Shown: positions 87 through 21,671, counted from the first letter of the stretch. The stretch: 64,000 bases of DNA from Haliovirga abyssi (GCF_030295325.1 NZ_AP027059.1:1112637-1176636); one strand, 5' to 3'. Notes: generated by a model not told the origin, from the letters alone. Translations and numbers: made by a program.

Positions 87-223
87 ACCTAACACTATGC
101 AGTCGATACATCTTCACCTAAGCCCTGTGGGACGTAATTCGATTCGCTAACAGGAGACCTGTAACGCTTATCTTCATTACTCTAGTGGTTCAGAAGCATC
201 GCCTAGCATGGGAGCCGTTATCT
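87..223 (+). other. attC-like recombination site 1
   Basis: The 5' core ACCTAAC (87-93) fits the integron R'' consensus RYYYAAC, and the 3' core GTTATCT (217-223) is a degenerate R'. Inside them the arms ATGCAGTCGAT and ATCGCCTAGCAT (read on the other strand as ATGCTAGGCGAT) pair with one extra base in the 3' arm, as in known attC sites. The spacer between core and arm is 3 nt on the left and 7 nt on the right. The segment is visibly richer in G+C than its surroundings. The call is inferred from structure; no integrase is in the window. Confidence 0.6.
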
Positions 224-289
224 GACAGAAATCAGCCTTTATTTATCTAATAAAGTTGGTTTTAACCGTTAAAATTTAAAAGCAAAAAA

Positions 290-333
290 CCAAAACTCGC
301 CTAAAGAAATTTCCGCCGACCGTCCTAGTCGGC
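290..333. repeat. Left boundary inverted repeat plus hairpin of the defence module
   Basis: CCAAAACTCGCC (290-301) is the exact reverse complement of GGCGAGTTTTGG at 5583-5594. Each copy has a hairpin on its inner side, with GCCGAC and GTCGGC around CGTCCTA here (315-333), and AGCCCACT and AGTGGGCT on the right (5547-5567). Both hairpins share GTCCTAGT. The pair encloses exactly the restriction, DUF262 and HEPN genes, so it looks like the edges of one mobile unit. Confidence 0.6.
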
Positions 334-349
334 TAAGTAAACATATTTA

Positions 350-378
350 GTGAAAAAAATCAAAAAAAATGTTATAAT
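350..378 (+). promoter_or_regulatory. Promoter of the restriction-modification operon
   Basis: GTGAAA (350-355), a 17-nt spacer and TATAAT (373-378), with TGT just before the -10 (extended -10). The RBS AAGAGGTGG follows and the first gene starts at 412. The unit therefore carries its own promoter. Confidence 0.6.
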
Positions 379-411
379 TGACCATAAATAATTATAAAAA
401 AGAGGTGGAAT

Positions 412-2391
412 ATGAAAATACAAGAAATATTAAAAGATAGTAATTATAAATTGTCATTATTTAATGAAAGTTATATAGAAAAACTTGAAAATTCTATTTT
501 TGAAAAGGAATTAAAAAATGGTAAAGCATACTACATAAAATGTATGGTAAGAAATAAAGATATAAAATTAACTCCAGAAGAGATTGTTAGGCAATTATAC
601 CTAATGCAGTTAAATGAAAAATACGGATACTCATTTGAAAGAATGCAAGTAGAATATATAGTGAATTTTGGAAGAGAGAAAAAAAGAGCAGACATAGTAA
701 TTATGGATAAAATACAACCAACAGTTCCATATATTATTATTGAAGTGAAAAAACCAAAATTAAAAGATGGAAAAGATCAGTTGAAATCATATTGTAATGC
801 AACTGGTGCAACTATGGCCGTATGGAGTAATGGAGAACAAATAACATATTATCATAGAAAAGATCCTAATTATTTTGAACCAATAACAAATATACCAACA
901 GAAAAACAGAGTTTAAGAGATTTATTAAAAGAAAAATTTTATATAGATGATTTAATTGAAAAAGATGAGTTGAAAAATCAAAAAAAATCACTTAAAAGTA
1001 TTATTTTGGATATGGAGGATGAAGTTCTTTCAAATTCTGGAGTAGATGTATTTGAAGAAGTTTTTAAACTTATATTTATAAAACTTTATGATGAATTACA
1101 GAGCACAAGAGATAGAGATAGAATGATTGAATTTAGAAAATATGGCGAAAGTGATAGTGAATTAAAAGAAAAAATAGAAGAACTTTTTGATAAAGCAAAG
1201 GAAAAATGGACAGGAATTTTTAAAGATGATGAGGGAATAGATTTAACTCCATCTCATTTGTCTGTTAGTGTTTCATCATTACAGAATGTAAAATTATTTA
1301 ATTCTAACCTTGATGTTATTGATGACGCTTTTGAATATCTTGTAAATAAAAATTCAAAAGGTTCAAAAGGTCAATATTTTACGCCTAGATATGTAATTGA
1401 CATGTGTGTAAAAATGCTGAATCCAAAAGAAGAAGAATATATTATAGATACCGCAAGTGGAAGTTGTGGATTTCCAATTCATAATGTTTTTGATGTATGG
1501 AAAAAAATATATAATGAATTAGGCATAGAAGAAAGTCATTTGTTTACTGCAGAAAAAAAACATGCAAGGGCATTAGACTATGTAAAAGAAAAAGTTTTTG
1601 GAATAGACTTTGATAAAAAAAGTGTTCGAGTAGCAAGAATGTTAAATATTATTGCAGGAGATGGACATACTAATGTATTAAACTTAAACTCTTTGGATTA
1701 TGGAAGATGGGAGGAAAGTACTAAAGATGAAAATTGGCAAGATACTTATTTTGATGGTTGGAGAAGACTAAAAAAATTAAGAAAAAACAGAAATTCAAAT
1801 AAAGAGTTTGAATTTGATATTGTAATGGCAAATCCACCTTTTGCAGGAGATATAAAAGAAGGAAGAATTTTAGCAAGATATGATTTAGGGAAAAAACCAA
1901 ATGGAAAATGGCAGACAAAAGTGGGGCGGGATATTTTATTTATAGAAAGAAATCTTGATATGTTAAAATCTGGTGGAAGAATGGCGGTAGTTTTACCACA
2001 AGGAAGATTTAATAATTCAAGTGATAAAGCTATTAGAGATTTTATAGCCGAAAAATGCAGGATTTTAGCAGTAGTTGGACTTCATGGGAATGTTTTTAAG
2101 CCACATACAGGAACCAAAACAAGTGTTTTGTTGGTGCAAAAATGGGATGAAAAACTTTGTCCTAAAAAAGATGATTATAATATATTTTTTGCAACTATGC
2201 AAAAACCTAGTAAAGATAATAGTGGAGATAAAATTTATGTAAAAGATGAAAATGGACAAAATATTTTAGATGATCATGACCATTTGATAGTTGACCATGA
2301 TTTATATAATCACGATGGAAAAACAGAAGATGGAATAGCAGAGGCTTTTATTGAGTTTTCAAAAAAGGAGAAGTTGAGTTTTTTTATTTAA
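412..2391 (+). CDS. BcgI-like fused restriction endonuclease and N6-adenine methyltransferase
   Basis: A combined R and M subunit, 659 aa. Residues about 45-165 form an HsdR N-terminal-type nuclease domain with the PD-(D/E)xK residues visible as D94 and E111-V-K113. Residues about 300-640 are an N6_Mtase domain with a SAM-binding ASGSCG motif (near 347) and the catalytic NPPF (474-477). The RBS AGAGGTGG precedes the ATG. The downstream gene is a specificity subunit, so the pair resembles BcgI-type (type IIB/IIG) systems that cut and methylate from one polypeptide. The stop lies in a T7 run; the specificity frame is -1 to this one and stays open back to about 2355, so the two genes may really be one frameshifted polypeptide. 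A DNA-protection role is inferred from the family. Confidence 0.88.
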   Translation: MKIQEILKDSNYKLSLFNESYIEKLENSIFEKELKNGKAYYIKCMVRNKDIKLTPEEIVRQLYLMQLNEKYGYSFERMQVEYIVNFGREKKRADIVIMDKIQPTVPYIIIEVKKPKLKDGKDQLKSYCNATGATMAVWSNGEQITYYHRKDPNYFEPITNIPTEKQSLRDLLKEKFYIDDLIEKDELKNQKKSLKSIILDMEDEVLSNSGVDVFEEVFKLIFIKLYDELQSTRDRDRMIEFRKYGESDSELKEKIEELFDKAKEKWTGIFKDDEGIDLTPSHLSVSVSSLQNVKLFNSNLDVIDDAFEYLVNKNSKGSKGQYFTPRYVIDMCVKMLNPKEEEYIIDTASGSCGFPIHNVFDVWKKIYNELGIEESHLFTAEKKHARALDYVKEKVFGIDFDKKSVRVARMLNIIAGDGHTNVLNLNSLDYGRWEESTKDENWQDTYFDGWRRLKKLRKNRNSNKEFEFDIVMANPPFAGDIKEGRILARYDLGKKPNGKWQTKVGRDILFIERNLDMLKSGGRMAVVLPQGRFNNSSDKAIRDFIAEKCRILAVVGLHGNVFKPHTGTKTSVLLVQKWDEKLCPKKDDYNIFFATMQKPSKDNSGDKIYVKDENGQNILDDHDHLIVDHDLYNHDGKTEDGIAEAFIEFSKKEKLSFFI

Positions 2392-2423
2392 GCCCTTTTG
2401 ATGAGGAGAAATATAAAAACTTA

Positions 2424-3851
2424 TTGGAAGGGCTGGGAATTAAAGAAAAACTTTTTTCACAAGTATTTGAAAATAAAGACTTTAGAATAGATAGTCAATT
2501 TTATACAAAGGAGCCTATTAAAAATCCGTTACTTATTTATGATAAAATTGGAAATAAATTAGACAAATCACAATATGGTATATCAATATCTATGAATGAA
2601 AATAATGTAGGGTATCCAATATATAGAATGAATGAAATACATAATTTATTATGTGATTTAAGTGTAAACAAATCTGCAAATATTTCAGAAAAAGAATTGG
2701 AAATATTTAAGTTAAATGATAGAGATGTTATTTTTAATAGAACTAATTCTTTTGAATGGGTTGGAAGGACAGGCATATATAGAAAATTAGATAATAAAGA
2801 CTTTATTTTTGCTTCATATCTTGTGAGATTTATCCCTGATGAAAAATTTATTTTACCTGAATATTTAACAGCTTTTTTAAACTCAAAGCAAGGAGTATGG
2901 GATATAAAAAGAAGAGCAAGACAATCAATTAATCAAACAAATGTAAATCCCGAAGAAGTGAAAGAAATTGAGATTCCTTTACTTTCAATGATATTTCAAA
3001 AAAGAATTAAAAACTTATTTGAAGAAGCACATATTAGTAGAGTTACTTCTGAAACACTATATAAACAAGCAGAAAATATTTTACTTGAAGAGCTAGACTT
3101 AAAAGACTGGAAACCAACAAATGAAAATATAAAGATTAAAAGTTTAAAAAACTCATTTTTGCAAAGTGGAAGACTAGATAGTGAATATTATCAGCAAAAA
3201 TATGAAGAGATAATTGAAAAAATTAAAAGTTATAAGGGTGGGCATGATACTTTAGAAAATCTTTGTAACCTAATGGATAAAAATTATAAACTAAAAGAAA
3301 AACAATATTATAAATATATAGAATTATCAAATATCGGAACAACTGGAGATGTTACTGGATTTACTTATGAGTTAGGAGAAGACTTGCCAAATCGAGCAAG
3401 AAGAAGAATAAAAGAAAATGATGTAATTGTTTCTTCTATTGAGGGTTCGCTTGAAAAAGTTGCATTAGTGACAAAAAAATTTGACAATAGCTTATGTTCA
3501 ACAGGTTTTTATGTAATTAATTCTGAAAAAATTAATTCTGAAACATTACTTATTTTATTAAAAAATAAAATAGTACAGCAAATACTAAAACAAAATTGTT
3601 CGGGTACAATTTTAACAGCAATAAATAAAGATGAATTTTTAAGAATAGGTCTTCCAATAATAGATTTGCTAATTCAAAATAAAATAGAAGAGAAAATAAA
3701 AGAAAGCTTTGATTTAAAAGAAAAATCAAAACAATTATTAGATATTTCAAAATTAGCAGTTGAAAAAGCGATTGAAGAAAATGAAGAAATAGCTTTAATG
3801 TGGATAGAAAATAAATTAAAAGAACTAAATATTAAATTAAATGAGGTATGA
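2424..3851 (+). CDS. Restriction-modification specificity subunit (HsdS-like)
   Basis: 475 aa with the two-fold layout of Methylase_S proteins: two target-recognition regions (about 1-190 and 230-420), each followed by a helical spacer ending in heptad-like sequence. It would choose the DNA target for the upstream R-M protein. The only start in frame is TTG at 2424, about 15 nt after a possible RBS AGGAG, which is poor. The open frame extends upstream to about 2355 and reads FFYLSPFDEEKY, a natural continuation of the R-M protein. A slip in T7 (2379-2385) or A6G (2361-2367) would give one chain of about 1146 aa. The next gene begins 1 nt after the stop. Confidence 0.83.
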   Translation: MEGLGIKEKLFSQVFENKDFRIDSQFYTKEPIKNPLLIYDKIGNKLDKSQYGISISMNENNVGYPIYRMNEIHNLLCDLSVNKSANISEKELEIFKLNDRDVIFNRTNSFEWVGRTGIYRKLDNKDFIFASYLVRFIPDEKFILPEYLTAFLNSKQGVWDIKRRARQSINQTNVNPEEVKEIEIPLLSMIFQKRIKNLFEEAHISRVTSETLYKQAENILLEELDLKDWKPTNENIKIKSLKNSFLQSGRLDSEYYQQKYEEIIEKIKSYKGGHDTLENLCNLMDKNYKLKEKQYYKYIELSNIGTTGDVTGFTYELGEDLPNRARRRIKENDVIVSSIEGSLEKVALVTKKFDNSLCSTGFYVINSEKINSETLLILLKNKIVQQILKQNCSGTILTAINKDEFLRIGLPIIDLLIQNKIEEKIKESFDLKEKSKQLLDISKLAVEKAIEENEEIALMWIENKLKELNIKLNEV

Positions 3852-3852
3852 A

Positions 3853-4896
3853 ATGGCAAAAAAAACTATTGCGGAAATAGAAGAAAATATAAATAAACAA
3901 CGAAAAAATGTAAAATATGATACAAAAGAATATACCCTTGAACTATTAGTTTCAAAGTTTAATAGAGCTATAGAAGAAAGTAAAACTACTGAAATTTTTG
4001 TTCCTTTTTATCAAAGAAAATTCGTTTGGGATGAAAAAAGACAATCTAAATTTATAGAATCTTTGATTTTAGGAATGCCAATACCACCTATATATTTAGC
4101 AGAAATAGACGATGGTGTTTTAGAAATAATAGACGGATCACAACGAATTAGAACTATTAATGAATTTTTAAAAAATAGACTAAAATTAAAAGGATTGTTA
4201 AAGCTTGAAGAACTAAATAATATTACATTTAATGAATTAAATAGTTCCAGAAAAAGAAAAATAAATAATATCTCAATTAAAGCAATAGTAGTAACGGATA
4301 TAGAAAAAAAGGATATGAATATAAGACATGAAATTTTTGAAAGATTAAATACTGGAGGAGAAACATTAAAAAAAATGGAAGTGACAAAAGGAGCGAAAGA
4401 AGGTAAATTTATTGAATTTATTTATAATGAATGTGGAGAAAACTCAATTTTAAAAGAAATATCAAATTTTAGTTCTAATGATGAAAAAAGAGGTTATAAA
4501 GAAGAATTTTTAATAAAATATTTTGCCTATTGTGAAAATTTAGAGTTTGAAATATATGTAAATGATTATCTAAATAAATATATTGAAGAGAAAAATGAAA
4601 AATTTAAAAATGATGATACAAAAGATTTATATTTGATTCAGTTTAAAGAAATGTTGAAAATAGTAAAATACAATGAATTAGTAAAAGATATATCTATAAA
4701 TAGAAAGAATAGATTGTTAGCTATTTTTATAGGGGTTACATTAGCGATAAAAGAAAAAAAAGAATTAGTTAATAAATCATTTGAAATAGATATTTATAGT
4801 GAAATATTTATAGAGAACGCAAAAAGTAATGGTTTAAATAAATTAAAGGAAAATATAGAATTAGTTAAAAATAAAATATTAGAGGCAAGTTTATGA
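3853..4896 (+). CDS. DUF262 (GmrSD N-terminal/ParB-like) protein
   Basis: About 347 aa. The DUF262 signature is clear: PFYQRKFVW near residue 51, then IPPIYL and the DGSQR box near residue 94. DUF262 belongs to the ParB/Srx-like fold and is common in defence islands, for example as the GmrS half of type IV GmrSD. The DUF1524 HNH nuclease half is not present here; the C-terminal part is a helical region of unknown role. I start at ATG 3853 (RBS GAGGT, 6 nt away) rather than the overlapping ATG at 3841. It overlaps the next gene by 4 nt (ATGA), implying co-translation. Confidence 0.78.
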   Translation: MAKKTIAEIEENINKQRKNVKYDTKEYTLELLVSKFNRAIEESKTTEIFVPFYQRKFVWDEKRQSKFIESLILGMPIPPIYLAEIDDGVLEIIDGSQRIRTINEFLKNRLKLKGLLKLEELNNITFNELNSSRKRKINNISIKAIVVTDIEKKDMNIRHEIFERLNTGGETLKKMEVTKGAKEGKFIEFIYNECGENSILKEISNFSSNDEKRGYKEEFLIKYFAYCENLEFEIYVNDYLNKYIEEKNEKFKNDDTKDLYLIQFKEMLKIVKYNELVKDISINRKNRLLAIFIGVTLAIKEKKELVNKSFEIDIYSEIFIENAKSNGLNKLKENIELVKNKILEASL

Positions 4897-5540
4897 CAAA
4901 TGATCTAAGAGAATTTTTTGAAGAAAGAAAATTAGAAGTAGAAGAATTTTTTAATTTTCTTTCTACTATAAATGATAAGAAAACTTATAAAAATGAGTTT
5001 TTAATTTTAAAAAGTCAATCAATTTTATTGTTATATAATTTAATTGAAGGTTCTGTTAATAAAGGAATTGAGTATATTATTGATTCAATTAATGATAAAA
5101 TGTTGAAATATAGCGAAATTGATGAAAAAATAAAAATTATTTGGTATAAACATAAAGCATCAAATATTAGAAATAAAGATGATTATAGTGAGATTTTAAG
5201 AGAAATTGAAAATTATATTAATCAAGAAGTGGAAATTGATATAAAAAAATTCAGGAAAAATAATAGTAGTTATTTTTCTGCTGGAAATTTAGATGGAAAT
5301 GCTATTAAAAAAATGTTGGAAAAACGATTTGAGATTGATTTTTCTAAGCAAGAATATAGATTGAAAAGAATAAAAGATGATAGGAATTTTTTAGCTCATG
5401 GTGAAAAATCATTTAAAGAAATTGGAAGAGATAAATCATTAGAGGAGTTAATTGAGACAAAAAAGAAAAGTTTTGAATTTTTAGATAGTTATATGGAGAA
5501 AATAGAAGAATATATTGAAAATGAAAAATATTTAGTATAG
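4893..5540 (+). CDS. HEPN-family (MAE_28990-like) protein, putative RNase
   Basis: 215 aa, all-helical in character. The HEPN motif R-x4-H is visible as RNFLAHG near residues 164-170, and the early segment LLYNLIEGSV resembles the MAE_28990/MAE_18760 HEPN group. HEPN proteins of this type are typically metal-independent RNases in toxin-antitoxin or abortive-infection systems. Its 4-nt translational coupling to the DUF262 gene suggests the two form a functional pair. A strong hairpin terminator follows 6 nt after the stop. Function is inferred from the motif and context. Confidence 0.7.
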   Translation: MTNDLREFFEERKLEVEEFFNFLSTINDKKTYKNEFLILKSQSILLLYNLIEGSVNKGIEYIIDSINDKMLKYSEIDEKIKIIWYKHKASNIRNKDDYSEILREIENYINQEVEIDIKKFRKNNSSYFSAGNLDGNAIKKMLEKRFEIDFSKQEYRLKRIKDDRNFLAHGEKSFKEIGRDKSLEELIETKKKSFEFLDSYMEKIEEYIENEKYLV

Positions 5541-5546
5541 ATATAC

Positions 5547-5570
5547 AGCCCACTGTCCTAGTGGGCTTTC
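5547..5570 (+). terminator. Terminator of the defence operon
   Basis: AGCCCACT and AGTGGGCT form an 8-bp stem around GTCCT, followed by TTTC. It lies directly after the HEPN stop. Confidence 0.7.
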
Positions 5571-5582
5571 TGCATAAAAAAC

Positions 5583-5594
5583 GGCGAGTTTTGG
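5583..5594. repeat. Right boundary inverted repeat of the defence module
   Basis: GGCGAGTTTTGG, exact inverse of 290-301. AAGTAGAGAT follows at 5601, as it also does near the left side (71). Confidence 0.55.
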
Positions 5595-5669
5595 ATTTTT
5601 AAGTAGAGATGAAAGTAAAAAAATTCTAATAAAGTTGATATTAATATAAAGAACATGCTGATTTCCGTC

Positions 5670-5759
5670 ACATAACACACGATATAGAATATCTTTTCGG
5701 TGGTTCGCTAGAGCTTCACGAACTTCAAAGGCATCGTATTATCGATGGAACCGTTATGA
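5670..5759 (+). other. attC-like recombination site 2
   Basis: Cores ACATAAC (5670-5676) and GTTATGA (5753-5759) are nearly complementary. The inner arms share CGATA with the reverse of TATCGATG; spacers are 3 and about 8 nt. The central part holds further small palindromes (GATATAGAATATC). The 3' end shares GCATCG, ATGG and CCGTTAT with site 1. It stands between the defence module and the GNAT gene. Confidence 0.6.
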
Positions 5760-5860
5760 GCAATGCATAAAGTAAAAGCAAATAAAAAAAGAGGTGGTAC
5801 CGGTAACATTATAAAATGAAATCAAATAAATAAAAACTAAAAATTGGAGAAAACGTATAA

Positions 5861-6736
5861 ATGAAATTAGAGTTAGTTTATGATTATAAAGAGAATGAAA
5901 TATTAAGGAAGAGTTTTAATGAGTTAAGCCAGAATACATTTGGAATAAACTTTGAAGAATGGTATCGAAAAAAATTATGGAATAATAAATATGAGTGTTA
6001 TTCCATAAAAAGTGGTAATAAAATAATTTCAAATGCTTCCGTAAATAAGTATCAGTTTATAATTAACGGAACAAAAAAAACTGCATTACAAATTGGAACA
6101 GTTATGACAGATGAAGAGTACAAAAGGAAAGGAATGGCTAAACAGATAATAAATTTTATACTTGAAAAATTTGAAAAAGAATATGACATAATTTATCTTT
6201 TTGCAAATAATTCTGTATCTGAATTTTATCCTAAATTTGGCTTTAAAAAAATAAAACAGTTTCAGATTTATACAACAGAAAAAATTGAATTGAATACTAA
6301 ATATAAGTTTCGTAAATTAGACATGGATAACTTAAATGATGTTGCCATATTGAAAGAAATAGGAATAAATCGTATTCCTACCTCAAGTCAATTTGACATA
6401 ATAAACGGATACGAAGTAATGTTTTGGTATTGTCTAAATGTTTTCAGAGGTAATATATATTATGATAACAGGGAAAAAATCATTGTTATATATACGACTG
6501 ATAATGAGAAATTAAATATACATGATATAGTTTTAACAGAAAAAAAGAACTATAGAGAAATAATCGGAAGTATAACAACAGATGAAATAAAAGAAGTATC
6601 GTTTGATTTTAATATTGAAGCAGACAATATAGAAATAAAAGAGAGAGAAGTTGATGAAGATGATAATATTTTATTCATTAAGGGAAAATTTGGTGAAAAA
6701 TTAAAAGTAATTCATCCAATAACATCACACGCATAA
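5861..6736 (+). CDS. GNAT-family N-acetyltransferase
   Basis: 291 aa. The GNAT fold is seen at about residues 60-140, with the acetyl-CoA-binding R/QxxGxG/A region as EEYKRKGMAKQII (near 86) and the late strand FYPKFGFKKI. The remaining 150 residues form a second domain resembling the two-domain Eis-like acetyltransferases, which acetylate small molecules or peptides; the substrate is unknown. The RBS TTGGAG is 11 nt before the ATG. The gene stands alone between attC-like site 2 and a half-site, as a cassette gene would. Confidence 0.72.
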   Translation: MKLELVYDYKENEILRKSFNELSQNTFGINFEEWYRKKLWNNKYECYSIKSGNKIISNASVNKYQFIINGTKKTALQIGTVMTDEEYKRKGMAKQIINFILEKFEKEYDIIYLFANNSVSEFYPKFGFKKIKQFQIYTTEKIELNTKYKFRKLDMDNLNDVAILKEIGINRIPTSSQFDIINGYEVMFWYCLNVFRGNIYYDNREKIIVIYTTDNEKLNIHDIVLTEKKNYREIIGSITTDEIKEVSFDFNIEADNIEIKEREVDEDDNILFIKGKFGEKLKVIHPITSHA

Positions 6737-6784
6737 AAGAAGTATATTAAAACGTAACAAAAATAGGAATCTAAAAAGCACTTC

Positions 6785-6800
6785 TCATAACAGCGAGGTA
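6785..6800 (+). other. attC-like half-site
   Basis: TCATAAC (6785-6791) followed by AGCG matches the left end of site 13866-13954 (ATATAAC, AGCG). I cannot find the matching right arm; GTTATGC at 6932-6938 could be the right core but the inner arms do not pair. Possibly decayed or truncated near the IS insertion. Confidence 0.3.
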
Positions 6801-6961
6801 TGTGATACGTTAAATGAAATTGCAGGTGATAGACTGTTTTAATAAACAAATTTTAGTGAAGAATGTACTTCACAGCTCTTTTAAAAAAGGTATCTCTAAA
6901 AATTAACTCATAAGTTAGATAAAAATATACAGTTATGCAACAAAAAATAATTAATGGAAAA

Positions 6962-8758
6962 GGTAGTGTCAAAAGTTTATGAAAACTATGAGAAAAACTA
7001 AAAAAATAAAAAGCAGAAAAAGAAGAAGAAATTTATGCTAAAATCATGAAAAAACCCTAAGATTTTTTATAGAATTAAATTGAAAATATTAGAAAGAAAT
7101 AAAAAACAAAAAGCAGAAAAATCCATCACTTTTGAGAAAAAAGTAATGGTAAGGCAGAAGTAAAATTATAAAAATTATGCTATATGTTTTTCAGGAATAA
7201 AATATTGAGATAACTCAATAAGTTTACCCCAACGAGCAGGCATGTTGGGTAAATCAGTAAGTTCAGGAATAACAACAGGTACGTTATTTTCCAAAGAAGA
7301 ATGAGGCCGAAGGAAATTAAAATACGCTGTAAATAAAGTAACAGAAGTAAAAGCGCCAGAATGAGAATTGTAACCGTTAGTATAATGATAATTTTCTTTA
7401 AAGGTTCTGTTCAGTCTTTCAATAATTTGTTTAAGAGGCCTAAATTTTTTAGAAACTTTATCTTTATTAGTTAAACCGATGACTTGTTCAACGTTAAAAT
7501 TAATGTCGTGTTGAGCAAAGAATTGTTGTGCTAGCAAGTATATGGGGTTGCCATCAACAATGACTTGGAAGTCTTCAGGGAGCTCCCTATACTTGCTAAT
7601 AACATCAATAAGAGCTTTGCAAGCAGATTTAGTATCTCTTGAAGAAGAAGTATAATGAGATAAAATAATTTTTTTCTTAGTATCAAAGAAAAAGAAAATA
7701 TATTTCCATTTACCAAGGACTTTAGTGTAAGTTTCATCACCACAAATGGAGTCAGAAAGTTTATAGGGATAATTGTCAATAATAGGTTTAACATTGGTGG
7801 CGACAGCTTTAGCATAATTTAAAATAGATTGATAAGAAATATTGATGCCGTGAATTTCTTTTAATAAATTGGCAGTTTTTCTTGCAGAGATACCAAAATT
7901 AATATTGTAAGAAAGAATAAGCCCTAATGTATAAGGAGAAACTTGTATCTTAGATAAATCACTTGGAATAGGAACGAGAGAATCTTTATCAAGAGAATTA
8001 AAATCAAATGTAAATTCTCTATAAATATAATGAAGTTTAAATTTACTAGGATCATTTTTATAAATTTTTCTTTCGTCAGCATCCATTTTTTGTAGATTTT
8101 TCAAATAAAAAGAGCATTTTTTATTTGTACATTTGTGGACGAAGAAATCTTTACGCTCCTTAATTTTTTCAAGAGTTTTGCCACAATGAGGACATTTAAA
8201 AACAACAAATTTTGCAAAGTGATTTTTTTCATGGAAATTGGTATTGCATATTTTACATTTAAATTGACCTTTATGTCCGTTGTTATCATAAATATATATA
8301 TGAGGAGCACCACAAATGGGGCAAATCAAGCTTTTGGGAACGGAGCTTTCTTTTCTGCGTTTAATGGGTTTTAAAGGCTTATTGTGTTTAAGTTGGTATT
8401 GTTCAAGAAGTATTTTATAGTCAAATTTAACAATTTTTTTAAAAATAGGCATTTTATCAACAATGAGTCTATGGTATTTTTTATCGATGGGTTTATCATC
8501 AGATTTAGAATTAAGAAACTCGAATTTTTTACCTAGAGCAAAGATCATTAAAGCAATAATTAATTTTTGTTGAATGGCAATAATTTTCAGCAAAGTGTAC
8601 ACATATTTTGGCATAAGAATCTCCTCCTAATTTGGTGTATTTTGTTACTGGTTATAATAAAATATTACCTTATTTTGGGGGAGGAGTCAAATATAACGCG
8701 CAAAGATAATAAATATAAAGGATAGTGACTTAAAAAGGAAACTTTATTTGACACTACC
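6962..8758. mobile_element. Insertion sequence, 1797 bp, with 8-bp target duplication
   Basis: The ends are inverted repeats: GGTAGTGTCAAA at 6962-6973 and its complement TTTGACACTACC at 8747-8758. The flanks carry a perfect 8-bp direct repeat ATGGAAAA (6954-6961 and 8759-8766), so insertion is recent enough for the duplication to be intact. It encodes one DDE transposase on the minus strand. The 8-bp duplication and the integrase-core transposase are compatible with the IS6 group or a relative; the N-terminal zinc ribbons and the 479-aa length are atypical for classical IS26-like members. It landed just upstream of the gene at 8782. Confidence 0.93.
7175..8614 (-). CDS. DDE (integrase-core) transposase with N-terminal zinc ribbons
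   Basis: 479 aa, full length. Two zinc-ribbon-like Cys sets lie at C98/C101/C120/C123 and C141/C144/C162/C167. A helix-turn-helix region (about 225-275) precedes the catalytic core, where D293 (GDETYTK), D354 (VDGNP) and E399 (IIERLNR) form the likely DDE triad; the block GDETYTKVLGKW resembles IS6-family transposases. The RBS GGAGGAG precedes the ATG. It would catalyse transposition of the surrounding IS. The family assignment is by motif only. Confidence 0.87.
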   Translation of the reverse strand: MPKYVYTLLKIIAIQQKLIIALMIFALGKKFEFLNSKSDDKPIDKKYHRLIVDKMPIFKKIVKFDYKILLEQYQLKHNKPLKPIKRRKESSVPKSLICPICGAPHIYIYDNNGHKGQFKCKICNTNFHEKNHFAKFVVFKCPHCGKTLEKIKERKDFFVHKCTNKKCSFYLKNLQKMDADERKIYKNDPSKFKLHYIYREFTFDFNSLDKDSLVPIPSDLSKIQVSPYTLGLILSYNINFGISARKTANLLKEIHGINISYQSILNYAKAVATNVKPIIDNYPYKLSDSICGDETYTKVLGKWKYIFFFFDTKKKIILSHYTSSSRDTKSACKALIDVISKYRELPEDFQVIVDGNPIYLLAQQFFAQHDINFNVEQVIGLTNKDKVSKKFRPLKQIIERLNRTFKENYHYTNGYNSHSGAFTSVTLFTAYFNFLRPHSSLENNVPVVIPELTDLPNMPARWGKLIELSQYFIPEKHIA

Positions 8759-8781
8759 ATGGAAAAATAAGGAGAGAAAAT

Positions 8782-9429
8782 ATGAAAAAAATAATCAAAG
8801 CGGTACTAATAATTATTACATCAATTATTCTAATTGTGATAATTGCAGGAATTTATAAGTTTAATTATTTAGCTAATCAGCCAGGATATGATGTTGATGG
8901 GAATAAAATTGAAGAAGTTCATAAGTCAGAAGTTTTATCGAAATGGTTTAATCTTGACACTACAAATGATTTTTATGTTAAAGTACCTGAACTAAAAATT
9001 AATTGTAAAATAACTCAAGTAATCGATTCGGATTCTTTGTACTATGCAAAAGGTAAATTTTCGGTAGGATATGAAAAAGGAAAAGTATTTATTAGCAATC
9101 GTGAGATTGTTACTCTCAATAACTCTACTTCAAATATCAATTACCTTGTCATTCCTTTTTCTGTTTCGAATCAGGGTAGCGGATTGTTTAAATATATAGG
9201 ACTGTTTAAATTAAACAACAAGGCTAAAACAATCAATCATATAGATTCTTATTTTTTAGGTGATAGAGTTAAAATTGATTCTATAGAATATGATGGTGCT
9301 AATAATATTCAAGTGAAAATAAAAATTCATACTAAAAATCAAGCAATGTCAGAAGCTCCTTCAGAGTTGAAATTATTAGAATTTAAAGTGCGTGATGGAG
9401 GTTTATTTGGATTTAAGCTATTAAAATAG
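8782..9429 (+). CDS. Membrane-anchored protein of unknown function
   Basis: 215 aa. Residues about 6-27 form one hydrophobic helix after a Lys-rich start (MKKIIKAV), so it is probably anchored in the inner membrane or exported, with a soluble outer part of about 185 residues rich in beta-type sequence. No lipobox Cys and no recognised family. The RBS AAGGAGAG is good. The IS inserted only about 20 nt upstream of the start, so its native promoter is probably gone and expression may depend on the IS end. An attC-like site follows 24 nt after the stop. Confidence 0.6.
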   Translation: MKKIIKAVLIIITSIILIVIIAGIYKFNYLANQPGYDVDGNKIEEVHKSEVLSKWFNLDTTNDFYVKVPELKINCKITQVIDSDSLYYAKGKFSVGYEKGKVFISNREIVTLNNSTSNINYLVIPFSVSNQGSGLFKYIGLFKLNNKAKTINHIDSYFLGDRVKIDSIEYDGANNIQVKIKIHTKNQAMSEAPSELKLLEFKVRDGGLFGFKLLK

Positions 9430-9452
9430 TTTTATTTGTTTTCACTAAAAGC

Positions 9453-9529
9453 CCATAAAATGTGCAGAAGCCATCATTTCGAGAAAACGATACGCTGGAA
9501 TGATAGCTTCTGGCACTGAGACGTTAGTA
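9453..9529 (+). other. attC-like recombination site 3 (degenerate left core)
   Basis: GTGCAGAAGCCATCATT (9462-9478) and AATGATAGCTTCTGGCAC (9499-9516) pair over 17 positions with one mismatch and one extra base in the 3' arm, the attC hallmark. The right core is GTTAGTA (9523-9529), 6 nt away; the expected left core is CCATAAA (9453-9459), with the final C lost. A rho-independent terminator is an alternative, but there is no T run. Confidence 0.5.
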
Positions 9530-9551
9530 GATTACAGCAAAGTATTAATTT

Positions 9552-9592
9552 AAGCATACATCCTTGTATGCTTTTTAGAAATATGGTAAAAT
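9552..9592 (+). promoter_or_regulatory. Terminator hairpin overlapping a cassette promoter
   Basis: AAGCATAC and GTATGC form a hairpin followed by TTTTT (9552-9576), a rho-independent terminator. Its right arm supplies the -35 TTGTAT (9564-9569), then 17 nt and TAAAAT (9587-9592) with TGG before it. It would stop upstream transcripts and start the Ham1/dCMP-deaminase transcript. Confidence 0.55.
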
Positions 9593-9618
9593 TAGAATTT
9601 ATGAAAGGAAGTTATTTT

Positions 9619-10242
9619 ATGGAAATAGTTTATGGGACATATAATATTTCTAAATTAAATAGTATGATAAAAATGCTTGAAGGTTTAGAAGTTAAAATTG
9701 TTGGATTAAGTGATTTTGGGATGAATTTAAAAAAATCAAAAGAAACTGGTAAAGATCCTTTAGAAAATGCAGAACAAAAGGCTAGAAACTATTTTAAGCA
9801 AATAAAAAAACCAGTATTTTCTTGTGATTCTGGTTTATATTTTGAAAATGTTGAGGAAAAAGATCAGCCAGGAATATTAATTAGAAGAATTGGAAATAAA
9901 AAGTTAAGTGATGAAGAAATGATAGAATATTATAGTAATTTAGCAAAAAAATATGGTGGGCAATTAAAAGCATATTATAAAAATGCAATTTGTTTAATAA
10001 TTAATAATAAAGAAAAATATAGCTATGTTGGAAAAGATATATATTCAGAAAAATTTTTAATAGTTGATAAACCACATAAAAGCTATAAAGAAGGATTTCC
10101 TTTGAATTCTCTATCTGTTGATATAAGTACGAATAAGTATTACTTTGATTTATCAAGAGAAAAAGAGGATAACTTAGATATAAAAATTGGTTTTAGAAAT
10201 TTTTTTATTAATAGTCTAAATATAGAAAGAAAGGGAATATAA
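9619..10242 (+). CDS. Ham1-like non-canonical purine NTP pyrophosphatase
   Basis: 207 aa. It opens with YGTYNISKLNSM, the Ham1/Maf-type substrate-binding strand, and has the family blocks FGM near 35, ENAEQKAR near 65 and FSCDSGLYF near 83. Such enzymes hydrolyse ITP/dITP/XTP to monophosphate and pyrophosphate, keeping damaged purines out of nucleic acids. I chose ATG 9619 (RBS AAAGGAAG) over the upstream frame at 9568. The dCMP deaminase-type gene follows 2 nt after the stop, forming a two-gene nucleotide-metabolism unit inside one attC-bounded segment. It is more divergent than housekeeping RdgB, so the exact substrate is uncertain. Confidence 0.7.
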   Translation: MEIVYGTYNISKLNSMIKMLEGLEVKIVGLSDFGMNLKKSKETGKDPLENAEQKARNYFKQIKKPVFSCDSGLYFENVEEKDQPGILIRRIGNKKLSDEEMIEYYSNLAKKYGGQLKAYYKNAICLIINNKEKYSYVGKDIYSEKFLIVDKPHKSYKEGFPLNSLSVDISTNKYYFDLSREKEDNLDIKIGFRNFFINSLNIERKGI

Positions 10243-10286
10243 TTATGAAAAAATTTAAGAATTATATTAATTAGGATGAATATTTT

Positions 10287-10742
10287 ATGGAAATTGCAAT
10301 TTTATCTGGGAAAAGAAGTAAAGACCCAAATACAAGAGTTGGTTCATGTATAGTAAACGAAAAGAATAGAATTGTTGGAATAGGTTATAATGGATTACCA
10401 AATGGCTTAAATGATGATGAATTTCCTTGGGGGAATACTGGTGATTACTTGAATACGAAATATCCTTTTGTTTGTCATGCAGAACTTAATGCTATTTTAA
10501 ATAGTACCTCAATAAGTTTGGAGAATTGTAAAATTTATACAGCACTATTTCCATGTAACGAATGTTCAAAGGTAATAATTCAGTCTGGAATAAGAGAAGT
10601 AATTTATTTGTCTGATAAGCACCATGATGATGATATTTTCATAGCTTCAAGAATGCTTTTGGATAGAGCAGGGGTAAATTATCGAAAATTAGAAACAACA
10701 ATTGATAAAATGGAATTGTCTTATAATGAAGAAAATGTATAA
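10287..10742 (+). CDS. dCMP deaminase-like protein, 5' end interrupted by amber stop
   Basis: Zinc-dependent deaminase of the dCMP deaminase/ComEB type (dCMP to dUMP). The zinc motifs are intact: H64-A-E66 and P-C90-N-E-C93. The family normally begins a little upstream with a conserved W-D-E-Y-F-M stretch. Here ATG 10245 (2 nt after the Ham1 stop, RBS AAAGGG) opens a matching frame, MKKFKNYIN, then TAG (10272-10274) where Trp is expected, then DEYFM. So either the gene is a nonsense pseudogene, translation restarts at ATG 10287 (151 aa, no clear RBS), or the stop is suppressed. An attC-like site follows 57 nt after the end. Confidence 0.7.
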   Translation: MEIAILSGKRSKDPNTRVGSCIVNEKNRIVGIGYNGLPNGLNDDEFPWGNTGDYLNTKYPFVCHAELNAILNSTSISLENCKIYTALFPCNECSKVIIQSGIREVIYLSDKHHDDDIFIASRMLLDRAGVNYRKLETTIDKMELSYNEENV

Positions 10743-10799
10743 AAATGCACTTCCTGAGCTACTGCTGTGACTAAGTAGAAATGGGAGGCAGATTGAATC

Positions 10800-10917
10800 T
10801 TCTAACATCCTGCAGACTATGGCCCTCGCCTACCGAGACACTTTGTCATTCAGGCTCTAAGCTTTTGTTTCATTGTTGTACTGCTCAGGCATATCGCCTG
10901 CAGGAAGACTGTTCTAT
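10800..10917 (+). other. attC-like recombination site 4
   Basis: Left core TTCTAAC (10800-10806) and right core GTTCTAT (10911-10917). The inner arms TCCTGCAG (10808-10815) and CTGCAGGA (10898-10905) pair perfectly over 8 bp, then continue imperfectly with extra bases in the 3' arm. Spacers are 1 and 5 nt. The segment is clearly G+C-richer than the flanking genes. Confidence 0.62.
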
Positions 10918-12235: not shown

Positions 12236-12259
12236 AATTTTTAAAAGTAGCATATTTCC

Positions 12260-12284
12260 GATAAAAAACATCCTGTTTTTTATC
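12260..12284 (+). terminator. Hairpin after the 11705 gene
   Basis: GATAAAAAACA and TGTTTTTTATC form a perfect 11-bp stem with a 3-nt loop; the T-rich 3' arm could act as terminator. Confidence 0.45.
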
Positions 12285-12390
12285 TAAGGAACGGCTTAAA
12301 AATAACATTCTCATTTGTTTATAAAATAGGCAATGTTTCTAGCCTTTTTATAAACAAATATGAGAACATTATTTTTTAAACGTTCCTAAG
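12284..12390. repeat. Palindromic interspersed repeat family 1, copy a
   Basis: About 107 bp, imperfect palindrome running from TAAGGAACG to CGTTCCTAAG with a middle portion near TTTGTTTATAAA. It is close to the exact reverse complement of copy b (14804-14909). Further copies lie at 20485, 21569, 41795 and 44645. Confidence 0.8.
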
Positions 12391-12484
12391 CGACTAGAGA
12401 AATGAAAAAACGAAGCAAAGAAGGTAAGGCAGAGATAGCTAACATTAATATAATTATTATGAATAATAGAAGGAGTTGATATAT

Positions 12485-13865: not shown

Positions 13866-13954
13866 ATATAACAGCGTGTTCCCGACACTCACTCTCTTTG
13901 GAGAAAAGCTTTGAGGGTAAGAGCCAAGCCTCGGGAACACATGAATCGTTATGT
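13866..13954 (+). other. attC-like recombination site 5 (best example)
   Basis: Left core ATATAAC (13866-13872) and right core GTTATGT (13948-13954) are complementary but for one G-T pair. Arms GTGTTCCCGA (13876-13885) and TCGGGAACAC (13931-13940) pair perfectly over 10 bp. Spacers are 3 and 7 nt, as in site 1. The TAACAGCG left end is the form seen in spirochaete integron cassettes as I remember them. The frame of the next gene runs through it by chance. Confidence 0.68.
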
Positions 13955-14017: not shown

Positions 14018-14806
14018 ATGAATAAATTGCAGCAATATTATGAAAAATATAGTGAATCAAATAGACTAGAGAAGGATAAAACATCAAAGATTGAATTTCT
14101 TACTAACATTGAGTATTTGAATAAGTACATAAAAAAAGGAAAACTTTTAGATGTTGGTGCTGGAAGCGGAATTTATTCTTCTTATTATGATGAAAAAGAA
14201 ATTGAAGTAACAGCAATAGATGTTGTTCAGTCCCATGTAAATTTTATGAAAGAAAAGTTTGTGGATAAAAATATTAATGTGAAACTAGGGAGTGCTTTAG
14301 ATTTATCTGAATTTAAAGAAAATTCTTTTGAATTTGTATTGTGTTTAGGTCCTATTTATCATTTAAGAGATAAAGAAGAAAGAATTAAATGTATAAAAGA
14401 ATGTAATAAAGTTCTAAAAAAAGGTGGTATTCTTGCAGTTGCTTATATAAATAAAATGCATATAATTCCACGTTATTTAGGAATTCATAATGAAATAATA
14501 GAGAAAGACGTTATTGAATACTTTTTAAAGACAGGTAACTTTTCATCTGAAGTAAAAGATGAATTTTTGAAGGTTTCTCATTTTGATTATCCGGAAGAAA
14601 TAGAAAATTTGATTGTTAATGAAGGAAATGAAGTTATTGAACACATTGCATCGGACAGTATTTGGAAATTAACTAAAAATGAAATTAATAATCTAACTGA
14701 ATTGGAGTTTGAATTGCTATTAAAATATCATTTAGAAACATGTAATCAAAAAAATTCATTGGGATTGAGTAATCATGGGTTGATTATTTCAAAAAAAATT
14801 AGTTAA
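14018..14806 (+). CDS. Class I SAM-dependent methyltransferase
   Basis: 262 aa, complete. Motif I is LLDVGAGSG at residues 43-51, followed by the acidic end of strand 2 (TAIDVV) and the DLSEF and LCLGPIYHL blocks (motifs II-III). It transfers a methyl group from SAM to an unknown small molecule or nucleotide. I chose ATG 14018 with RBS GGAGGAG; the longer frame from 13817 passes through attC-like site 5 and is not real. It starts 64 nt after the right core, a typical cassette spacing. Confidence 0.75.
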   Translation: MNKLQQYYEKYSESNRLEKDKTSKIEFLTNIEYLNKYIKKGKLLDVGAGSGIYSSYYDEKEIEVTAIDVVQSHVNFMKEKFVDKNINVKLGSALDLSEFKENSFEFVLCLGPIYHLRDKEERIKCIKECNKVLKKGGILAVAYINKMHIIPRYLGIHNEIIEKDVIEYFLKTGNFSSEVKDEFLKVSHFDYPEEIENLIVNEGNEVIEHIASDSIWKLTKNEINNLTELEFELLLKYHLETCNQKNSLGLSNHGLIISKKIS

Positions 14807-14909
14807 GGAACGTTTAAAAAATAATGTTCTCATATTTGTTTATAAAAAGGCTAGAAACATTGCCTATTTTATAAACAAATGTGTAAGTTATTTTTAAGCC
14901 GTTTCTAAG
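14804..14909. repeat. Palindromic interspersed repeat family 1, copy b
   Basis: TTAAGGAACGTTT ... AAGCCGTTTCTAAG. Nearly the reverse complement of copy a, so the two copies bracket the HAD, Nudix and methyltransferase genes in inverted orientation. Confidence 0.8.
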
Positions 14910-15108
14910 TAATTTTATATAAATTAAAAAAGAGTGATTTTGTGACAAATAAAGAGTACATGAATTTATTGAGTTGTAAATACTGTAATTTTTGATTTAG
15001 AAATTCTTAAAGTATACTATGGATTTCTTTTAGGTGCTTTTTTAAGAAAAAATAAAACTTTATATAAGTATTATCAAAATTTAAATTATAAAATAAAGGA
15101 GAGCTAAT

Positions 15109-20435: not shown

Positions 20436-20474
20436 AAAGAGCAAATCTATTTAAAGGATTTATTCTTTTTTTCT
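20436..20474 (+). terminator. Terminator of the MBL to GNAT operon
   Basis: AAAGAGCAAATC pairs with GATTTATTCTTT followed by a T run (20436-20474), immediately after the GNAT stop. Confidence 0.55.
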
Positions 20475-20484
20475 ACGTTTTATT

Positions 20485-20580
20485 CTAAAGAACATTTAAA
20501 AATCAATTTTTTTATATTTTGTTATAAAAGTATTTAAATCATCGCATATTGTAAAACAAAATGGAAATATTATTTGTAAG
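20485..20580. repeat. Palindromic interspersed repeat family 1, copy c
   Basis: CTAAAGAACATTTAAAAATC ... GGAAATATTATTTGTAAG. A divergent copy sharing TATATTTTGTTATAAAA and AAACAAAATGG with copies d and e. Confidence 0.65.
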
Positions 20581-21349: not shown

Positions 21350-21556
21350 ATGGAAAAAAATTATAAATGTCCAAAATGCGGAAACAATAGTTATGAAACA
21401 GATACAATTGCTACAACTGGAGGAGGTTTTTCAAAAATATTTGATGTGCAAAATAAAAAATTTACAGCAGTAACTTGTACTAGATGTAAATATACTGAAT
21501 TATATAAAGCAGAAACAAGTATGCTTGGGAATATATTTGATTTTTTTACTGATTAG
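21350..21556 (+). CDS. Small zinc-ribbon protein (COG3478-like)
   Basis: 68 aa. Two Cys pairs, C7-x2-C10 (CPKC) and C43-x2-C46 (CTRC), make a zinc ribbon; the central TTGGGFSKIFDVQNKKF and the C-terminal YTELYK follow the pattern of predicted nucleic-acid-binding zinc ribbons of COG3478. The molecular role is unknown for the family. ATG 21350 follows AAGGAGGAG; the longer frame from 21278 includes the promoter and is rejected. A monocistronic gene followed by a palindromic repeat. Confidence 0.78.
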   Translation: MEKNYKCPKCGNNSYETDTIATTGGGFSKIFDVQNKKFTAVTCTRCKYTELYKAETSMLGNIFDFFTD

Positions 21557-21568
21557 AAATTTTTACAA

Positions 21569-21671
21569 AAGAACGTTTAAAAAATAAGTTTCTTATATTT
21601 TGTTATAAAAACGCTTAAATCGTTGCGTATTTTAAAACAAAATGGGAATGTTATTTTTAAGACGTTCCAAA
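21569..21671. repeat. Palindromic interspersed repeat family 1, copy d
   Basis: AAGAACGTTTAAAAAATAAG ... TTTTTAAGACGTTCC. Closest to copy e (41795-41899). Confidence 0.8.

Follow-up and report, generated by a model that had tools for sequence, protein, structure and literature searches.

Are the four defence-type genes at the beginning of this stretch of Haliovirga abyssi DNA carried as a single integron cassette, and do the short inverted repeats around them belong to that cassette or to a second mobile element lying inside it? The window, i.e., the whole stretch of 64,000 nucleotides that was analysed, is C1:1112637-1176636 of a 2.73-Mb genome, which we take to be of Fusobacteriales type, judging from its relatives. 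In our opinion, it is quite probable that the segment 218-5753 is one large integron gene cassette in an integrase-less array and that its repeats are features of the cassette ends. The earlier note on this DNA had added a second layer of mobility; its observation was confirmed and its interpretation of the locus as a cassette is strongly supported, while the additional mobile layer is not.

Both attC-like sites reported previously are present and give the exact limits of the cassette, designated c2 below (all positions are those of the window):

87-223, + strand: attC-like site 1 (attC1); R'' ends at 93, R' GTTATCT at 217
217-236, + strand: left arm of the circular attC, GTTATCTGACAGAAATCAGC, complementary to 5657-5676
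218-5753, + strand: integron-type gene cassette c2, 5.54 kb, with the G/TT cut at both ends
5657-5676, + strand: right arm of the circular attC (R'' end), GCTGATTTCCGTCACATAAC, complementary to 217-236
5670-5759, + strand: attC-like site 2 (attC2); R' GTTATGA at 5753

A circular integron cassette possesses one attC, the outer arms of which are contributed by both cassette ends. Because these arms join in the circle, the start of a cassette standing in an array has its complement in the arm that precedes the attC of the same cassette. In c2, the two arms are complementary in 18 of 20 positions. The cassette belongs to an array of at least six cassettes, the first one being situated directly 3' of trpE, and the following further parts of this array were recognised:

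1-217, + strand: 3' end of the upstream cassette c1, which begins some 2.15 kb upstream of the window, just past trpE
5754-6914, + strand: c3, GNAT acetyltransferase (5861-6736) and attC3 (6785-6920); start and attC arms 12/14
6915-9523, + strand: c4, 215-aa protein and attC4 (9442-9529; DNA-fold z -3.6), interrupted by an IS at 6962-8758
9524-10911, + strand: c5, Ham1-like protein and dCMP deaminase, attC5 (10800-10917); arms 10/11
13866-13954, + strand: attC6, the last site recognised in the array, with a 10-bp perfect L stem

The start of c1, GTTAGGTGCA, is complementary to TGCACCTAAC at attC1 in all 10 positions, and own-end complementarity was also found in c3 (12/14) and c5 (10/11); it is weak in c4 and c6. 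When the ends of the six successive cassettes were permuted, only one of the 720 permutations, the true pairing itself, reached the score, and the true pairing gave 27 matches in arm positions 8-14 against a permuted mean of 15. The arm extents in the six cassettes are 15, 24, 16, 5, 11 and 7. On IntI-bearing contigs of other genomes, exact arms of 7-10 nt were found in two arrays of typical cassettes, and the arm extents at 80% identity were 6-17 in the longest array. Since IntI-bearing arrays give similar arms, the arm signature may be regarded as genuine; the arm of c2 is the longest among all those measured, here and in the IntI-bearing arrays. The claim that a defence cassette of several genes lies between two attC sites thus receives strong support from the self-complementary ends and the array-wide permutation test.

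The arms were read manually and evaluated by permutation in place of attC scans. The canonical scan for GTTRRRY-type attC recovered attC6 only, because 5 of the 7 R' boxes deviate from GTTRRRY (for example, GTTATCT, GTTATGA and GTTCTAT), and a relaxed scan for TAAC/GTTA stems was no better than shuffles. The sites retain the G|TT core and AAC, and in view of the deviation from the consensus c2 is filed as a diverged variant of the integron gene cassette. Alignment of the six attC sites with MAFFT was of too low quality for a covariance model. The attC-like folds show AAC...GTT ends and L stems. Twelve of 200 shuffles fold as well as attC2 (90 nt), attC4 and attC6 are stronger, and the DNA folds of attC1, attC3 and attC5 are no better than shuffles (z -0.7 to -1.2). 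The strong AAC-stem-GTT sites are attC5 and attC6, and shuffles give none. The junction of the joined c2 circle folds better than shuffles on both strands (z about -3.5, calculated with RNA energies and with attC included), giving nested stems with the 20-nt arms, next the inner repeat, and the hairpins outside.

Two observations concern the neighbouring cassettes. Just before the window, c1 (L015:16952-18579) encodes a 312-aa protein that matches HEPN weakly, and also a candidate defence protein, PDC-S51 (match of 241 bits), owing to which the array holds at least two cassettes of defence type. The IS in c4, located upstream of the gene of this cassette, contains a DDE transposase gene (7175-8614) and has terminal repeats GGTAGTGTCAAA and an 8-bp duplication ATGGAAAA.

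A search with the integron-integrase model in the own genome gave only split, sub-threshold matches of Xer type lacking the model region 188-236, and nothing was found at E<=1e-50 in the 96 genomes of the order, where the host genome is the sole member of its family. As a control, 20 other genomes carrying relatives of the methylase were searched with the same model, and 7 of them gave matches above its cut-off. With a positive control and no IntI over the cut-off, the array is assigned to the integrase-less kind; a complete integron, with an intI gene and attI beside the array, was not recognised here. Like a CALIN (cluster of attC sites lacking an integrase), defined in the standard way as at least two attC sites less than 4 kb apart without intI (PMC9668308), it has at least two attC-like sites in the same orientation and no intI. 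It differs from a CALIN in the distance of 5.5 kb between attC1 and attC2, the spacings from attC2 to attC5 being below 4 kb, and in most R' boxes being off GTTRRRY. The earlier remark that 5.5 kb would be large for an integron was correct, as this size exceeds the 4-kb attC spacing of standard surveys (PMC9668308), which would split such a cassette.

The lack of an IntI over the cut-off in the genome and the order, together with the departure of 5 of the 7 R' boxes from the consensus, would also suit an array served by a non-IntI tyrosine recombinase, for example, by the XerA-like proteins of contig 2 acting on diverged attC-like sites. Several XerA/XerC-like recombinases do occur in the genome, one family of them in repeated units on contig 2. 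However, none of them adjoins the array, and the best resident candidate remains below both cut-offs (187 bits against 220 for XerA, 122 against 265 for the integron integrase). Moreover, no attC-like site was found at the strict stem threshold in 20 kb around the contig-2 recombinases, and integrase-less arrays are common among bacteria anyway (PMC9668308). We consider this explanation distinctly improbable. The contig-2 stretch itself (G000 C2:222000-241999) contains three near-identical tandem units, each with a replication initiator, an XerA-like recombinase, a protein of 239 aa and a fragment resembling an Rhs tip (RYVDPSGH...) with differing ends.

The gene content described previously, namely methylation-restriction, specificity, DUF262 and HEPN genes, was confirmed in full, and a promoter-like site was found where a promoter had been proposed:

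350-378, + strand: promoter-like site GTGAAA-17-TATAAT with TG before the -10 element (10/12)
412-2391, + strand: restriction-methylation protein, N-terminal PD-(D/E)xK (HSDR_N_2) and N6 methylase (NPPF)
2424-3851, + strand: specificity (S) subunit with two target-recognition halves
3841-4896, + strand: DUF262/GmrSD_N protein with the DGSQR motif
4893-5540, + strand: MAE_28990-type HEPN protein, Rx4H motif RNFLAH

The PD-(D/E)xK, NPPF, DGSQR and Rx4H motifs are all intact. The HSDR_N_2 domain has the motif D..EVK, and the nearest solved structure to the first protein is RM.BsaXI. The combination of HSDR_N_2 and N6_Mtase in one protein, together with a separate S protein, corresponds to the BcgI/BsaXI plan, and a type IIB restriction-modification (RM) system is predicted from these domains. 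Like systems of the BsaXI/BcgI kind, c2 has a predicted methylase with N-terminal PD-(D/E)xK and a separate specificity subunit; unlike them, it continues with two accessory genes. The methylase and S proteins also match the MAD2 and MAD5 models of MADS, but well below the curated cut-offs (321 bits against 720 and 117 against 400, respectively), and membership in MADS was rejected. No HNH domain was detected in the DUF262/GmrSD_N protein. The start of the HEPN gene overlaps the DUF262 stop, and its product is placed among MAE_28990 HEPN RNases by the family match (PF18737, E 9.6e-24) and Rx4H.

An operon of MAE_28990 HEPN with a ParB nuclease and a DNA methylase was published (Anantharaman 2013, PMC3710099) and contains the same three components, ParB corresponding to DUF262; c2 adds the specificity subunit and carriage as an integron cassette. 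The order methylase-S-DUF262-HEPN is conserved in Sulfurimonas (L038) and in a Sphingobacteriaceae MAG (L045). This common gene order and the published association indicate an older module that was turned into a cassette here.

Defence cassettes are established in both Vibrio and mobile integrons (review PMC12409362), including chromosomal integrons of Vibrio (Darracq 2025, Getz 2025) and mobile integrons (Kieffer 2025), as far as these studies are presented in that review. They share with c2 the presence of attC-bounded defence genes in an array. Cassettes typically contain one ORF, occasionally more (PMC12409362), whereas c2 has four genes, 5.5 kb and its own promoter, and its array lacks an integrase and resides in a host of Fusobacteriales type. 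Thus, c2 is a large variant of the known integron defence cassettes. Its size, the completeness of its RM operon, the group to which the host belongs and its long cassette ends go beyond what was known: a complete multi-gene restriction and HEPN module is found as a single integron cassette in an order whose searched genomes gave no integron integrase.

According to the scheme that we propose, c2 would have been inserted by site-specific recombination at G/TT of the R' box, attC taking part as a folded single strand, with an integron integrase presumably supplied in trans. One promoter would drive a self-contained four-gene operon, in which the first two genes may form a BsaXI/BcgI-like restriction-modification complex, and DUF262 and HEPN may be accessories coupled to each other, the former most likely a nuclease-family sensor and the latter an RNase. 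The HEPN RNase would act when restriction fails or is triggered, and the probable function of the whole is antiphage.

The following elements lie between the arms and the genes:

246-258, + strand: 13-bp direct repeat TCTAATAAAGTTG, left copy
284-301, + strand: inner inverted repeat, left arm, 12 exact, 17/18 extended
315-333, + strand: left GTCCTA-loop hairpin GCCGACCGTCCTAGTCGGC, DNA-fold z -3.2
5547-5567, + strand: right GTCCTA-loop hairpin AGCCCACTGTCCTAGTGGGCT, immediately 3' of the HEPN stop codon, DNA-fold z -4.1
5583-5600, + strand: inner inverted repeat, right arm, 12 exact, 17/18 extended
5625-5637, + strand: 13-bp direct repeat TCTAATAAAGTTG, right copy

The exact 12-bp inverted repeat described earlier is indeed there (CCAAAACTCGCC at 290-301 and GGCGAGTTTTGG at 5583-5594), as is a hairpin beside each copy; in both hairpins the loop is GTCCTA and has the same orientation, and they differ by a compensatory G-C/C-G swap. 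The 12-mer occurs only at these two sites of the genome. Such a unique exact repeat at both ends of an operon, accompanied by two hairpins with the same loop and orientation, resembles transposon-like or IS200/IS605-like ends, by which the operon could have been carried into a pre-existing cassette; same-oriented hairpins are known from IS200/IS605 ends. A third hairpin points in the same direction: ACYGTCCTAGT has three copies in the genome, two in c2 and one on contig 2, where it follows the specificity gene in an operon for type I RM, and the 3' flank of this copy resembles the right flank of c2 (by eye).

Against this second layer of mobility, c2 contains no transposase, and no target-site duplication was found at the inner repeat. 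The complementarity extends outward, toward attC, to 17/18 (AAAAAACCAAAACTCGCC and GGCGAGTTTTGGATTTTT, 284-301 and 5583-5600); running past 290 and 5594 without any duplication, it is unlike transposon ends. The repeat and hairpin unit was not found around other cargo in the own genome, and the hairpin was detected neither in the order's 95 other genomes nor near 89 loci with methylase relatives. The homologous modules of Sulfurimonas and the Sphingobacteriaceae MAG have no inner repeat and stand, as far as seen, outside an attC context. For a transposon with terminal inverted repeats, target duplication, transposase and related copies are all absent from the c2 repeat. Therefore, the two-layer explanation, which the earlier note had favoured, is very improbable, and the short inverted repeat is most probably part of the cassette ends. 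When plasmids were searched with the DNA of the right flank, all matches were short and looked like chance.

The repeat and the hairpins might also have no link to mobility, either punctuating transcription or being left over from the assembly of the cassette, and the repeat may even be an effect of chance or composition. The hairpins do flank the promoter-operon unit, and a gapped local alignment of the inner repeat gives P of only about 0.001, in AT-rich DNA and for a repeat picked from a large window. In shuffles of the two intergenic stretches, at least 12 exact positions appeared in 0.8%, and at least 12 with at least six G+C in 0 of 2000. On the other hand, the 20-bp arms, the 13-bp direct repeat, the inner repeat and the hairpin pair follow in mirrored order at both cassette ends, which independent chance can hardly explain, and we regard this possibility as real but rather unlikely.

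If c2 is one integron cassette, the 20-bp arms at its outer ends, probably together with the inner 12-18-bp repeat, would form a long symmetric flank around attC, existing in the circular cassette only, and the GTCCTA hairpins may punctuate the transcription unit. The flanks combine inverted (20 and 12-18 nt) with direct (13 nt, hairpins) repeats; a simple extended stem fits the inverted elements, but not the 13-bp direct repeat or the same-oriented hairpin loops. A further reading, in our opinion improbable, is a diverged integron-like system of this bacterial lineage, with diverged attC sites served by a non-IntI recombinase. The attC of the circular cassette would then lie within a long symmetric flank made up of the 20-bp arm, the 12-18-bp repeat and the hairpins, in that order; this flank would be a record of cassette formation or would stabilise the folding of single-stranded DNA in AT-rich sequence. 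Long symmetric cassette ends, if recurrent, bear on how attC cassettes are made.

As to the terminator placed earlier at the end of the block, the right hairpin stands as a weak candidate, while no hairpin here has the T-tract looked for; the hairpins may serve as terminators or insulators. No Rfam match was obtained in the whole window. Two viral contigs with the exact hairpin were set aside (55-58% GC, unrelated context), and the second form of the hairpin gave none. The operon on contig 2 (C2:118322-125800) comprises R, M, a 365-aa protein and S, with the third GTCCTA hairpin at its end.

The only Y1 transposase gene of the genome adjoins a different palindrome, GGAACGTT..AATGTTCT, which also speaks against IS200/IS605-like ends in c2; accordingly, this transposase was set aside as a mobiliser of the hairpins. 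Repeated palindromic elements GGAACGTTTAAAAAATAATGTTCT... were observed in the window at about 12250-12440, 14806-14910, 20470-20570 and 21530-21650, and the presence of their palindrome beside the same Y1 transposase gene (L131) suggests that they are non-autonomous elements of IS200/IS605 type.
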